NCBI RefSeq assembly: GCF_012843675.1
Contig: NZ_JABAFO010000001.1
Location: 62,001 to 126,000, forward strand
Direction: 5' to 3'
Length of the DNA: 64,000 nt
Origin: Lactobacillus sp. MRS-253-APC-2B
Lineage (GTDB): Bacteria > Bacillota > Bacilli > Lactobacillales > Lactobacillaceae
Both the position numbers and the translations under genes were made by a program. Positions 18,391 to 23,160 of this stretch are shown here, piece by piece. The stretch's first letter is position 1. Each line of letters opens with the position of its first letter. A model generated the notes under the pieces. It saw only the letters and a list, made by a program, of their open reading frames with translations. It ran no database searches and was not told the origin of the DNA.

Positions 18391-18681
18391 TCAGCTAAAT
18401 GGCTGTACCTTAATCAGCCATTGTCCATTATCGACATCAGCAGCCACCCATCCCTTTAAGGCTGGATTGACCGCCACGATCACACCATCAATTGGACTTT
18501 TTAAATCGGTAATCATCTGCTGTCCTTCAATCGTTGCCAAACTGTCATTGGTCTTAAGCTGCGTACCAACCAGTGCAAGATCGACAAACCGCAGCCGTCC
18601 TAGTTTCTGCAATGCCGACTCAGTCAAACCAATCGCGGCCAGGTCACGAGCCTGATGATCAATCCACCATGGCTGCTCCAT
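18391..18681 (-). CDS. GcvH-like protein lacking the lipoylation lysine
   Basis: 96 residues with the barrel-sandwich fold of glycine-cleavage H-protein: LAAIGLTESALQKLGRLRFV, then VGTQLKTNDSLATIEG, then SPIDGVIVAVNPAL. In true H-proteins the lipoyl lysine lies in ESVKA before the SDxYSP segment. Here the aligned stretch reads EGQQMITDLKSP, with Gln55 at the lysine position. The only nearby lysine (61) is six residues off. No glycine cleavage genes are present in this window. It follows rodA by 12 bases as the last gene of the shape operon. A catalytic H-protein role is unlikely, and the actual role is unknown. Confidence 0.8.
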   Translation of the reverse strand: MEQPWWIDHQARDLAAIGLTESALQKLGRLRFVDLALVGTQLKTNDSLATIEGQQMITDLKSPIDGVIVAVNPALKGWVAADVDNGQWLIKVQPFS

Positions 18682-18693
18682 TTTATATCACCT

Positions 18694-19887
18694 CTAGTGA
18701 AATTCTTGATTGTTGCTGAACATGTAGGAATGATGATGATATCGCATTGACATGACCATACCGACCCCGATCAGATTTCCGATCAAAGACGAACCCCCAG
18801 CACTGATAAATGGCAACGGAATCCCGGTCAATGGCAAAAGACCAATATTCATCCCGATATTTTCAAAGACGTGAAAAAGAATCATCATAATTACGCCGGT
18901 TGAAATGTAGGCATAAAACTCATTTCGAGTATCAAACGTCACCCGAATCATCAGATAGATCAACAATAGGTACAGCAGGATTAATAAAACGCCACCGATA
19001 AAGCCAAAGTTCTCACCAATCACCGAAAAGATCATGTCGGATTCACGCACCGGCACATAAACGTGCGTATGGTTAAAGCCAGTCCCGGTAATGCCACCAC
19101 TACCGACCGCCTTGATACTTTGCCAAAGCTGGTAGCCTTGATTGGTCGTATCAGCTTGAGGATTCAGCCAAGTGTCGACACGGTCAAACTGATACGATTG
19201 AAAGCCGATATGTTCCAAGATCCGGCGACCGGTCGTACTGGTAACCATTGCCAAAGCTGAACCACCAATCACGATCAATACCGTCGCTACCGGAGCGATG
19301 ATGCGCCAGGTTACGCCACCAACCAGCAACATGCCGCAGAAGATGGCAAAGAAAACCAGCGACGTCCCAAAGTCGTTTTGGAAGTGCAAAGAGATCATGA
19401 TCGGCATCAGCCACAAAAGCATCTTCCCGATCAAGCGCCAGTCCGATTCCACGGTATGTGTGCTGTACTGACTGTTGTGCGTGGTAATTACGCGCCCCAT
19501 CATCAGAATGTAGGCTGGTTTCATAACCTCGGAAGGCTGGAAGGTGAATGGACCAATTGCAAACCAGCTTTTGGCACCAGTACTGGCATAGTATGATCGA
19601 CTGTAGAACACCAGAATGGCAAACATCAAGAAGACACCCAGCCAATAGACGATTGGGGCGATCTTCCAGAGCTGTTCGGCATCAAACTGCATGATAACAA
19701 TGATCAGAATCGTCCCGATGATGTACCAAACCAGTTGCGATACTACCTGGCGTGCAACACTGGTTGGCGTCGTATCGTTAACGGCAGCAACATAGATTGA
19801 AGCCAGACCAATCAAAGCCAGCAAAAGCACACAGAAGATAATGCCCCAGTCAATCCGCGATTCATTATCATTTTGCGAACGTTGCAT
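18694..19887 (-). CDS. rodA: Peptidoglycan glycosyltransferase RodA
   Basis: 397-residue SEDS-family polytopic membrane protein, about ten spans, which polymerises lipid II for lateral wall growth with a class B PBP. Family motifs: AKSWFAIGPFTFQPSEVMKP, HFQNDFGTSLVF with the catalytic-type Asp, and TGIPLPFISAGGSSL near the C-terminus. It lies in the mbl-yidD-DUF2969-rodA cluster, which supports RodA rather than FtsW. SD AAGGAGA. Confidence 0.93.
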   Translation of the reverse strand: MQRSQNDNESRIDWGIIFCVLLLALIGLASIYVAAVNDTTPTSVARQVVSQLVWYIIGTILIIVIMQFDAEQLWKIAPIVYWLGVFLMFAILVFYSRSYYASTGAKSWFAIGPFTFQPSEVMKPAYILMMGRVITTHNSQYSTHTVESDWRLIGKMLLWLMPIMISLHFQNDFGTSLVFFAIFCGMLLVGGVTWRIIAPVATVLIVIGGSALAMVTSTTGRRILEHIGFQSYQFDRVDTWLNPQADTTNQGYQLWQSIKAVGSGGITGTGFNHTHVYVPVRESDMIFSVIGENFGFIGGVLLILLYLLLIYLMIRVTFDTRNEFYAYISTGVIMMILFHVFENIGMNIGLLPLTGIPLPFISAGGSSLIGNLIGVGMVMSMRYHHHSYMFSNNQEFH

Positions 19888-19954: not shown

Positions 19955-20179
19955 TCAACCTTGGTGAAGATGATACTGCTGCAGAATCGTTTCGAGGCCC
20001 TCTTCTTGAGAGCGAACGTAAAATGCCTGCTCCCCTTTCAAAAGGATTGCTTTAAAACGCTCCTTATCAGCCACGACCTCACCGATCAGTCGCTTTCCAA
20101 CAAAAATCTGTTCTACCGGCTGGCCATTGCGTTCAATATCTTTGACGCTAACAGCAACCGTCTTTTCTTTTTTTGACAC
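19955..20179 (-). CDS. DUF2969 family protein
   Basis: 74-residue protein starting at GTG 20179 after AAGGGTGAA (SKKEKTVAVSVKDIE). DUF2969 is a small cytoplasmic family of unknown function, largely restricted to lactobacilli and relatives and commonly next to rodA. The sequence has charged short beta-strand-like segments (QIFVGKRLIGEVVADKERF). An upstream in-frame start inside yidD has no SD support. The gap to yidD is 4 bases. Confidence 0.85.
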   Translation of the reverse strand: MSKKEKTVAVSVKDIERNGQPVEQIFVGKRLIGEVVADKERFKAILLKGEQAFYVRSQEEGLETILQQYHLHQG

Positions 20180-20183
20180 GTTT

Positions 20184-20435
20184 TCACCCTTGTCTATGAT
20201 GTGTTCGTCGGATTGTAAAGTGATCCGGCACTGGATCAAAACCGCCCCTGGCCCAAGGATGACAGCGCAGAATCCTGGCACTGCCCATAATGATTCCTTT
20301 TAGGCCAAATCGCTGAACGGCTTCCAGCATATACTGCGAGCAGGTTGGCTCATAGCGACACACACGATAGGGACGACGTGCTGAAATGCCGCGCTGATAA
20401 CCCTTGATCAGCATGATCACCATTTTCCTAAACAT
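20184..20435 (-). CDS. yidD: Membrane protein insertion efficiency factor YidD
   Basis: 83 residues. The family pattern is complete: [31 protein letters not shown], and [17 protein letters not shown]. YidD is a small membrane-associated protein that helps YidC-dependent insertion in E. coli. In lactobacilli it is often found inside the mreB cluster rather than beside rpmH/rnpA/yidC. It starts 5 bases after the mbl stop. Confidence 0.93.
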
Positions 20436-20440
20436 TGCTT

Positions 20441-21439
20441 CTACTTGCGACTTTTACCGCCATCAGCCTGCATACGTTCCAGCAGTTCGCCGGCGCCCTT
20501 GGCAACGTTATCCAGCGGATCTTGAGAAACGACTACCGGGACCTTCAATCGATCACTAAACAGCTTATCGAGACCATGCAGCATTGCGGTCCCACCCGTC
20601 AGCATGATGCCGCGATCGATAATATCGCTGGCCAGCTCTGGTGGTATGGTTTCCAAAACGGTAACCGAAGCCCGTACAATCTGTTCCAGCGTGTCGTGCA
20701 GAGCATCCGCAATTTCATTCTCATTGGTTTCGATCTGCTTTGGCATGCCACTGGCAACGTCACGACCGCGAACTTCCATAGTCTGAGGCTCAGCCATCTT
20801 TTGAGCCGTCCCCAGCTTGATCTTGATGCGCTCAGCGGTATGCTCACCAATGATCAGGCCATGGTGATCCTTGATATATTCAGCAATATCACTGTTCAGC
20901 TGGTCACCAGCCAAGCGGACTGATTCACTGGCTACGATATCGCCCAATGAAAGGACGGCGATGTCGCTGGTACCGCCACCCATGTCGATTACCATATTGC
21001 CGCGTGGCTTGAAGATGTCCAATCCAGCACCGATTGCAGCTACCTTAGGCTCATATTCCAAGTAGACCTTGCCGCCGCCGGATTGTTCGGCAGCTTGAAT
21101 AATGGCTTTGCGCTCAATTTCGGTAATGTTGGTTGGCGCACAGATCATAATATCAGGTTTTGACATGAAGCCCTTGACACTAAGCTTGCTGATAAAGTAG
21201 GAAAGCATTTCCTGGGTCATATCAAAGTCGGAAATTACCCCATTTTTCAGTGGCCGAATCGCGCGAATGTTGCTTGGCGTCCGACCAACCATTCGATAGG
21301 CCTCTGAGCCGACTGCCAGCACCTTGTTAGTACGAGTATCAATTGCCACTACGGATGGTTCGTTTAATACGATACCCTTTCCTTGTACGTAAATCAGAAC
21401 ATTGGCTGTTCCAAGGTCAATTCCGATATCCTTAGCCAT
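20441..21439 (-). CDS. mbl: Rod-shape determining actin homologue MreB/Mbl
   Basis: 332 residues. It forms membrane-associated actin-like filaments that organise lateral wall synthesis with RodA. Phosphate 1 loop [14 protein letters not shown], phosphate 2 [14 protein letters not shown], and adenosine loop [16 protein letters not shown] are all intact. The start is ATG 21439 (MAKDIG) after GGAGAAAAAC. Sequence character ([17 protein letters not shown]) fits Mbl, but MreB versus Mbl cannot be settled without alignment. It has its own extended -10 promoter downstream of the murA-like gene. Confidence 0.92.
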
Positions 21440-21476
21440 GTTTTTCTCCTTCCGATTTTTACTCAATTCGAACGAT

Positions 21477-21553: not shown

Positions 21554-22771
21554 TCAATCAATGTCTTTTAGCTGCAGACTGGCCCCCAGACCTTGCAGCT
21601 TGCTTGGCAAGTCCTCGTACTCAATCCCAAGATAAGCGCCATTTTCAACGATCGTCATTCCTCGTGCTGCCAGCCCTGCCAAGGTCAACGTCAAGGCACT
21701 GACAGCATCGGTAGCCTTAACGCTGGTTCCGGTCAGCCGACAAGGACCTTTTAAAACCAGTCCATCGTTTTGTACCTGTACGTCAGCCTGCATCTTTTGC
21801 AACTGATCAAGCAGTTTGGGATCTATCTTGGCATTTACGCTGTTGCCATTGGCTAATAGCTGCAGTACTGCTAATTCAGGCCTCATCGTTTTAGGAAAAA
21901 GCGCTACCGGATCACTGGGCAGCAAAACGGCAGTTCCCAAGACGCGGATCCCATTTTGCTGTACGATCACCGTGCAACCCATCCGCTCAAGCTGATCAAT
22001 TGCACCTTGAACGGCCTGCGCATGAATATTTTCTACGATAACGTCACCATTAGTAATCGCCGCCGCCAGCATCAATGCCGTGGCCTCCAAATGGTCGCCA
22101 GAAATCTCAAAGTCACAGCTATGCACAAAGGTTACCCCCTGGATGCGGATGGTCTTAGTCCCCGCGCCATGAACACGCGCACCCATCTTGTTTAAGAGAT
22201 TGGCCAGGGCGATAACTTCAAAATCACAGGCAGCATTTTCAATCACGGTAATGCCATTCGCCAATACTGCTGCTAAAATCAAGCTCTGTGTAATTAGACA
22301 ATCAGCCGAGTGGATCATCAAGTGGCTGCCCGTTAGCTGATCAACACTAACCTTTAAAGTCTGATCATCACTTGATACGGTTGCACCTAAGCGACTTAGG
22401 CCATCAATCAGCTCATCCGATAACTGATCCTTATTCAGCTTAATGCTGCCAGTTCGTGCCAATAGCGGTCCAACCATCAAAGCAGCTGATGTTGAGGAAT
22501 CAATCGTCGTTAGGTCATCAAACGTTAATTCAGCTTGAGCTTGAACATTCAGTTGATGCATTGGCTTGACGGCATCAATGCCTAAGCCAATCTTTTGCAG
22601 ACATTCGCTCATCGAATCAACCATTGCCGTATCCGCTACATTAGTCAGCTTAAATTCGCCGGTTGAAGCCAAAAGAGCTGCCGCCTGCATTGAAAGTGCC
22701 AACTCAGTCGAGCCAGCAACCGCTGCGTTTCCTTGCAGACGCTGTCCTCCTTGAATCAGAATCTTTTTCAT
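21554..22771 (-). CDS. MurA-family pseudoenzyme (EPSP-transferase fold)
   Basis: 405 residues, with the full two-domain fold length of MurA (about 420). The N-terminus reads MKKILIQGGQRLQG. MurA normally joins enolpyruvate to UDP-GlcNAc. Here GAKN is GSTE (K22 to T, N23 to E), TMRAS is SSTSA (R91 lost), the PGGC loop carrying Cys115 and R120 is deleted (LARTGSIKLNKDQLSDEL), FPTDMQ is FPKTMR (D305 lost), and TDLRAS is TDAVSA (R397 lost). The reading frame is clean and SD GGAGGA precedes ATG 22771. It is therefore a maintained but probably inactive homologue, between DUF1146 and mbl. Confidence 0.88.
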   Translation of the reverse strand: MKKILIQGGQRLQGNAAVAGSTELALSMQAAALLASTGEFKLTNVADTAMVDSMSECLQKIGLGIDAVKPMHQLNVQAQAELTFDDLTTIDSSTSAALMVGPLLARTGSIKLNKDQLSDELIDGLSRLGATVSSDDQTLKVSVDQLTGSHLMIHSADCLITQSLILAAVLANGITVIENAACDFEVIALANLLNKMGARVHGAGTKTIRIQGVTFVHSCDFEISGDHLEATALMLAAAITNGDVIVENIHAQAVQGAIDQLERMGCTVIVQQNGIRVLGTAVLLPSDPVALFPKTMRPELAVLQLLANGNSVNAKIDPKLLDQLQKMQADVQVQNDGLVLKGPCRLTGTSVKATDAVSALTLTLAGLAARGMTIVENGAYLGIEYEDLPSKLQGLGASLQLKDID

Positions 22772-22793
22772 TCGATTTTCCTCCAGCATTGAT

Positions 22794-23024
22794 TTATCGT
22801 GCCAGATAAATCAGATTATGAATTGCCTTTAGCACCGTTAATAAAAAACTGGCATTCAAATAGCCCAGTGCAGTCGCCAACATCACTGTCAGCAAAGGCA
22901 GTGTCTTGGGTGGGCGCCGAAACCAGCGTTCCATATGCAGCCCTTGCAGAGCATAAAAGGCAATCCAAATAAAACCAAGTTGAATCACAATCGTAATCAA
23001 AGCCTGCAGCCCTGTCAGTTCCAT
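22794..23024 (-). CDS. DUF1146 family membrane protein
   Basis: 76 residues with two hydrophobic segments (residues 5-25 and 42-66) joined by a basic loop HMERWFRRPPKTLP. DUF1146 (YwzB-like) is a small membrane family of unknown function that in Firmicutes lies just after atpC and before murA, exactly as here. ATG 23024 follows GGGAGGATG. It begins the cell-shape transcription unit after the atp terminator. Confidence 0.85.
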   Translation of the reverse strand: MELTGLQALITIVIQLGFIWIAFYALQGLHMERWFRRPPKTLPLLTVMLATALGYLNASFLLTVLKAIHNLIYLAR

Positions 23025-23113
23025 TAAACATCCTCCCAGTAAGCAATCATTTATCATCTTACCATACTCTGCACCAAGCCTTCTAATTGAAGATCAATGT
23101 TTACAAAGAATTT

Positions 23114-23152
23114 AAAAAAAACGCCATGCCAATAATTGGCATGACGTTTTTT
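23114..23152 (-). terminator. atp operon terminator
   Basis: ACGCCATGCCAAT / ATTGGCATGACGT followed by T run on the minus strand, directly after atpC. Confidence 0.88.
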
Positions 23153-23160
23153 CAAACGAC

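Follow-up and report, generated by a model that had tools for sequence, protein, structure and literature searches.

The window, by which we mean the whole stretch of 64,000 nucleotides that was analysed, is part of contig 1 of a draft genome of 1.98 Mb (G000), and its source belongs to Limosilactobacillus, a genus of gut bacteria, and stands near L. mucosae. A cluster of genes on the reverse strand follows a terminator-like hairpin 3′ of atpC in the order DUF1146, a MurA-like gene, mbl, yidD, DUF2969 and rodA (Table 1). The hairpin is a consensus match only, and 7 such sites occur between 18300 and 23700 against 5.1 expected by chance; it has by far the longest stem of the seven and sets the cluster apart from atpC. 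The open reading frame of the MurA-like gene, counted from the ATG at 22789, has 411 codons. The ATG at 22771 is the likelier start because GGAGG stands 8 bases ahead of it; translation would then begin 22 bases after the DUF1146 stop codon. An earlier note on this DNA had claimed a gene of full MurA length with an open frame and a strong Shine-Dalgarno sequence, kept in a cell-shape operon. All of this was borne out: the 405-residue product is MurA-like from end to end, GGAGG is in place, and mbl, yidD, DUF2969 and rodA lie downstream on the same strand.

Table 1. Features of the murA1 cluster (positions are those of the window).
Feature	Position	Strand	Remarks
Terminator-like hairpin between atpC and DUF1146	23115..23153	-	18 pairs
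DUF1146 gene	22794..23057	-	directly upstream of dead murA1
Ribosome-binding site and start codon	22769..22784	-	GGAGG (22784-22780) and ATG at 22771; read from sequence
MurA1-type pseudoenzyme gene	21554..22771	-	405 aa; ORF extends to upstream ATG at 22789
Site of the deleted PGGC(115) loop	22430..22435	-	between residues 113 and 114; from alignment
Codons 186-285	21917..22216	-	segment most conserved among the 15 dead copies, with 9 of 11 invariant polar residues
mbl (MreB/Mbl)	20441..21466	-	downstream of dead murA1
yidD	20184..20435	-
DUF2969 gene	19955..20281	-
rodA (FtsW/RodA/SpoVE family)	18694..19887	-
GcvH-like short protein	18391..18681	-	96 aa; Pfam GCV_H 59 bits; directly 3′ of rodA

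Homology with MurA extends over the whole protein. The Pfam profile EPSP_synthase matched it with 148.8 bits over profile positions 1–417, and the best match among solved structures in the PDB was 3r38 (E 5e-65), named as Listeria MurA (PMC8959180). The TIGR01072 murA model gave 238.5 bits and its curated equivalog cut-off of 392.7 was not reached. For comparison with E. coli MurA (reference sequence from NC_000913) the key positions were those listed in the earlier note together with R331 and R371, which we presume to belong with them. The alignment showed the replacements K22T, N23E, R91T, R120Q, D305T, R331K, R371V and R397I and a deletion of the PGGC loop including C115; none of the nine key residues (Cys or Asp included at 115) is kept, and the catalytic Lys, the Cys loop and the Arg residues were not recovered. 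The losses proposed from inspection by eye therefore stand for K22, N23, the PGGC loop with C115, R120, D305 and R397; R91 is lost too, but reads T and not S, and R331 and R371 extend the list. A single one of 12 positions that we take to contact UDP-GlcNAc is retained. As judged from these residues, the protein would be unable to bind or turn over substrates in the fashion of MurA. Annotation as a plain MurA is rejected by the residues and the TIGR01072 score, and a MurA-style sensor of UDP-GlcNAc is rejected by the loss of the contacts. The gene lies after DUF1146 and before mbl, the place of MurA1 in the genus, and is nearer to MurA1 than to MurZ. Sequence and position identify it as the ortholog of MurA1 (MurAA) in Limosilactobacillus, located where that gene usually lies but turned pseudoenzyme.

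Three genes of the EPSP-synthase family are present in the same genome: aroA (contig 34), murZ (contig 5, L082), which lies downstream of pyrG, and the dead murA1; aroA and pyrG were named from their translated sequence. A search for a murA elsewhere, as the earlier note had proposed, thus returned one other MurA-type gene, murZ, with its catalytic residues in place: K22, N23, R91, R120, D305, R331, R371 and R397 are kept and position 115 is Asp. Therefore, the dead MurA1 is not needed for catalysis. Asp115 was found in all 47 MurZ loci examined in Lactobacillaceae (27 of Limosilactobacillus, 20 of other genera), among which 13 of the 15 genomes with dead MurA1 described below are represented. 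Its occurrence in lactobacilli is already in print (PMC9733070), and E. coli MurA carrying C115D is reported to be fully active and fosfomycin-insensitive (PMC4790336).

The place of MurA1 was readable in 49 of 50 Limosilactobacillus genomes, the exception (G015) being 78% complete with no atpC found. The slot holds a canonical MurA1 in 31 genomes, a dead copy in 15, a damaged copy in one and no MurA1 in two. Each of the nine key residues is present in all 31 live copies of the genus and in all 30 copies from other genera, and the dead copies keep between none and three of them. Single changes at other active-site positions occur in a few live copies, e.g. D123Y (L026) and P121L (L030). The dead copies fall into a lineage A (the window's own genome, G003 and G027, which is L. 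mucosae DSM 13345), a clade B (G006, G008, G010, G019, G025, G039, G011, G044, G018, G017 and G013) and a lineage C (G043). The damaged copy of G005 (L065) sits inside a live clade and keeps seven of the nine key residues; it carries R91H and C115G, and its loop reads LPAGGVDG in place of LPGGCAIG. Here, loss of catalysis is possibly under way. The order DUF1146-murA1-mbl-yidD-DUF2969-rodA is held in the 47 loci of the genus that keep murA1, so far as the stretches reach, except that two live loci (L027, L032) lack a yidD match. Neither murA1 nor mbl was found at the cluster in G009 (L087) and G016 (L086). These two genomes form sister rows with long branches, and G009 has no DUF1146 match either.

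For comparison with other genera, atpC was searched in 51 genomes (five of them from the genus) and found in 50. Downstream of atpC, 30 loci of other genera were read, one of which was too short. The genomes had been picked for MurA scores that pointed to an absence of MurA1, and hence the comparison is one of fates and not a census. No MurA-like gene was found downstream of atpC in any of the 29 readable loci; mbl stays in 20, is also gone in one (L088), and in the remaining eight loci atpC is followed by other genes. At least two of these genomes (G103, G066) have a second murA elsewhere, that of G066 being in two pieces. In these loci of other genera the whole gene was lost, whereas in Limosilactobacillus the body of MurA1 is mostly kept. 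Many genomes of other genera gave weak second matches (40–117 bits), which are taken to be AroA, as judged by their scores; with no MurA-like gene in the 29 slots, dead MurA1 in other genera was rejected as their source. In ten further genomes, mostly chosen for odd scores, low or split matches proved to be pieces of a high-scoring murA, and some rows were left unassigned. A high-scoring murA split into at least two adjoining pieces was seen in G139, G209, G330, G342, G402, G416 and G066; these would stem from frameshifts or errors of assembly, in contrast to dead MurA1, which decayed in frame. In one genome of another genus, G219 (L044), atpC and DUF1146 are followed by a canonical MurA1, with matches to yidD and rodA but none to mbl within the stretch examined. 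Dead MurA1 is provisionally restricted to Limosilactobacillus, since the survey stayed inside the family and took a sample of the members of each genus.

A tree computed from the neighbour proteins (55 rows) separates the dead copies, and its starred branches force at least three changes of the dead label. Forced groupings were tested after removal of the two murA1-absent rows and of two long rows of the outgroup. A single clade of all 15 dead copies was rejected (AU p 9.3e-5). Forcing lineages A and B together with G043 excluded gave p 0.039; the separation of A and B rests on this value, from a post hoc test chosen after the tree was seen and involving long branches. Catalysis was thus lost independently, firmly at two occasions and likely at three, and G005 is a possible fourth loss under way. 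The nearest live relative of the dead copy in G043 is that of its sister G021 (52% identity; SH-aLRT 90 for the sister branch). It therefore probably died in place and was not imported from elsewhere.

All 15 dead copies have open frames of at least 408 residues without internal stop. A dN/dS ratio could be obtained for four of nine pairs of dead copies, the other five being saturated at silent sites, and was 0.163 (95% bootstrap 0.112–0.227), 0.127 (0.073–0.194), 0.057 (0.027–0.099) and 0.138. Values of 0.06–0.16 place the dead protein under purifying selection, and the comparison across related species called for in the earlier note thus yielded ratios far below 1 in those pairs that gave one. 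For G011, G018, G017 and G013, selection is read from open frames and conservation because of the saturation. The corresponding values are 0.008–0.045 for Mbl and 0.02–0.12 for live MurA1, both below the 0.13–0.16 of lineage A; purifying selection acts on live and dead MurA1 and is weaker in lineage A. The dead protein evolves fast relative to its neighbours: between the window and G003, identity is 99% for AtpC, 97% for Mbl, 94% for both DUF1146 and YidD, and 71% for dead MurA1. The gene thus combines lost catalysis, as deduced from residues, with a conserved protein under purifying selection. The proposal of a MurA-derived pseudoenzyme is supported by this selection, by the lack of an active site and by the other MurA-type gene with catalytic residues. 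The conservation speaks for selection on a non-catalytic part of the protein, for which the roles suggested in the earlier note, a scaffold towards Mbl/RodA or a partner of true MurA, are candidates.

What is conserved lies outside the catalytic positions. Among the 15 dead copies 36 columns are identical, 25 of them non-polar and 11 polar. The invariant polar residues, none of them catalytic, are Q29, R106 and, within residues 186–285, H201, R209, Q211, T240, D243, T267, Q271, R276 and T280 (hypergeometric P 9e-5 for 9 of 11 in a segment picked after inspection). Across seven representatives of the dead copies, identity averages 0.53 in residues 186–225 and 0.47 in 226–290, against 0.23–0.36 elsewhere. 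Silent sites in the kept segment vary (dS 0.20–1.19) and the constraint therefore acts on the protein; a constraint on DNA or RNA was rejected on the same grounds. Q29, H201, Q211, Q271 and T280 occur in 31, 31, 31, 29 and 31 of the 31 live copies of the genus, and in 1, 0, 1, 0 and 1 of the 30 copies from other genera. Since these five genus-specific residues are also found in live MurA1, a selected, non-catalytic role of MurA1 probably predates the loss of catalysis. Of 20 columns derived in the live copies of the genus, 6 (30%) persist in 80% or more of the dead copies, and of 178 ancestral columns 52 (29%). The derived share is no higher, so that function is indicated by the residues being polar and retained without exception, not by how many there are. 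Patch positions are given by sequence only, and an AlphaFold2 model computed from a two-row alignment (mean pLDDT 42.1, pTM 0.34) was left unused. At the position of E. coli A374 (L360 in the window protein) 14 dead copies have Leu and one has Met, whereas Ala is found in 31 of 31 live and 30 of 30 other-genera copies; the larger residue could plug the former cleft. Live MurA1 of the genus has a C-terminal tail beyond the last aligned strand; most dead copies lack it, and L006, L069 and L078 keep part of it.

IreB, through which a dead MurA1 might act, was found in 49 of the 50 Limosilactobacillus genomes, the miss (G022) being 75% complete. The ReoY family, which we take to be UPF0302, was not found in the window's own genome, and direct inhibition is therefore favoured over ReoY-assisted proteolysis. 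In Enterococcus faecalis, unphosphorylated IreB is reported to send MurAA to ClpCP and to inhibit MurAB directly; it binds both and may bridge them, a MurAA-IreB2-MurAB bridge having been modelled (PMC12077105). Two replacements in Listeria MurA, N197D and S262L, which lie on helices at the surface and away from the active site, abolished the interaction with ReoM in two-hybrid and pull-down experiments (in vivo); surface plasmon resonance found ReoM binding unaltered (PMC8959180). By alignment, the two residues correspond to N191 and G256 of the window protein, just before the two best-kept hairpins. These two known contact residues are partly kept in dead copies: the N197 equivalent is Asn in the dead lineages A and C only, clade B having K, E, A or D, of which D is the very replacement that cost Listeria MurA its interaction (PMC8959180), and the S262 equivalent varies among live copies too. 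An alignment of IreB, from which 3 of 24 rows were left out, two of them from MurA1-less genomes, showed no difference by which live and dead lineages could be told apart. IreB is also present in both genomes without MurA1 (G009, G016). The precedent for regulation is a strong one. Since, however, clade B has no Asn at the N197 position, the S262 position is variable among live copies and genomes without MurA1 retain IreB, we rate an action of dead MurA1 through IreB at clearly less than an even chance, though somewhat above that of an Mbl/RodA scaffold; the remaining probability falls to other partners.

Taken together, we consider it rather probable (roughly 0.7) that the MurA1 pseudoenzyme acts by protein contact in peptidoglycan control, through a partner that we infer. 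MurA1 of the genus would have gained a protein-binding role involving residues about 186–285 while it was still an enzyme. With MurZ able to carry the reaction alone, catalysis could then have decayed in some lineages, the binding role alone being kept. In a more specific and tentative form, which we hold to be possible but short of an even chance, this second role was regulatory and specific to the genus, and evolution removed only the catalytic half in several lineages; what was left would be a regulatory subunit in its own right, which governs the one remaining enzyme, the Asp115-type MurZ, either directly or by way of IreB, and links the supply of precursors to Mbl-RodA.

A scaffold that binds Mbl or RodA and, independently of IreB, brings precursor synthesis or MurZ to that site would account for the cluster order kept in all 47 murA1-keeping loci (yidD apart in L027 and L032) and for the absence of mbl from the cluster in both genomes of the genus that lack murA1. 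However, G009 and G016 are sisters, so that this joint loss counts as one event; among the 29 readable loci of other genera, 20 have mbl in place although murA1 is gone, and in G219 no mbl was found beside a canonical MurA1. This makes a scaffold unlikely, albeit the least so of the competing readings. Recruitment of the fold for another reaction is improbable. It would be in line with the polar residues H201, R209, Q211, D243, Q271 and R276 being conserved across lineages, but the cleft positions K22, N23, R91, D305, R371 and R397 hold unrelated residues among the dead lineages, and Leu or Met replaces Ala, three residues from R371, in every dead copy; the cleft has therefore not been preserved as a catalytic site.

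A dying pseudogene that happens to have an open frame would evolve fast, and the low identity of the window protein to its counterparts in G003 and L. mucosae (71%, with AtpC at 99% and Mbl at 97%) and the dN/dS of lineage A, above those of Mbl and of live copies, are as expected from it. The confidence limits of dN/dS are nevertheless far below 1 in three pairs and all 15 frames are open, on which grounds a decayed pseudogene was rejected; in addition, the gene is gone and not decayed in those other genera that were read, and deletion is therefore easy. We regard this reading as largely refuted and very improbable. Residual synthesis of UDP-GlcNAc-enolpyruvate by dead MurA1 is scarcely credible: the homology is full-length, yet the window copy has a change at every one of the nine key positions and, on the list of contacts assumed above, retains a single UDP-GlcNAc contact. 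A contact role of the MurA1 pseudoenzyme is the reading that we prefer.

The label "UDP-GlcNAc carboxyvinyltransferase" for the gene in this slot would be wrong in 15 of the 50 surveyed genomes. Recurrent MurA1 pseudoenzymes in one genus are a broader finding than the single gene considered in the earlier note. Live, damaged and dead copies within one genus amount to a natural experiment that separates catalysis from other contacts, and the residues kept without catalysis are now visible as targets for mutation. In most of the Firmicutes that have been studied, MurAA is reported to be the primary MurA and at times an essential one (PMC12077105); in Limosilactobacillus it was this primary paralog that died and the secondary one that stayed, more than once.

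Among known systems the closest is MurAA/MurA1 itself, represented by Listeria MurA (3r38). The window copy shares with it full-length homology, and it shares its slot with live MurA1 of the genus and with that of G219 in another genus; it differs in having none of the nine catalytic residues and in scoring below the TIGR01072 cut-off. MurZ/MurAB with Asp115 belongs to the same enzyme family and the same genome, but keeps the catalytic residues that dead MurA1 has lost. An LPS pathway is not expected in a Gram-positive organism. In Pseudomonas, MurA is reported to activate LpxC, and a catalytically dead C117S variant still raised LpxC product and LPS (PMC12444477). As in our reading of dead MurA1, MurA acts there by protein contact, but the native protein doubles as the MurA enzyme of the cell; by analogy, the dead variant shows that a contact role is possible for the MurA fold. 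The IreB/ReoM system ties two MurA paralogs together via a small substrate of the PASTA kinase (PMC12077105, PMC8959180). Both paralogs are enzymes there, whereas here MurA1 is inactive by sequence and ReoY went unfound in the window's own genome. Mycobacterial CwlM is a regulator predicted to dock on an outer beta-sheet of MurA (PMC12723410), but that MurA is active and the residues in contact are located elsewhere in the sequence. In the literature searched, mostly papers free of subscription, no description of a MurA pseudoenzyme was found. Pseudoenzymes and MurA acting by contact are thus known already; what is new are recurrent MurA1 pseudoenzymes in one genus, with a selected role that apparently preceded the loss of catalysis.
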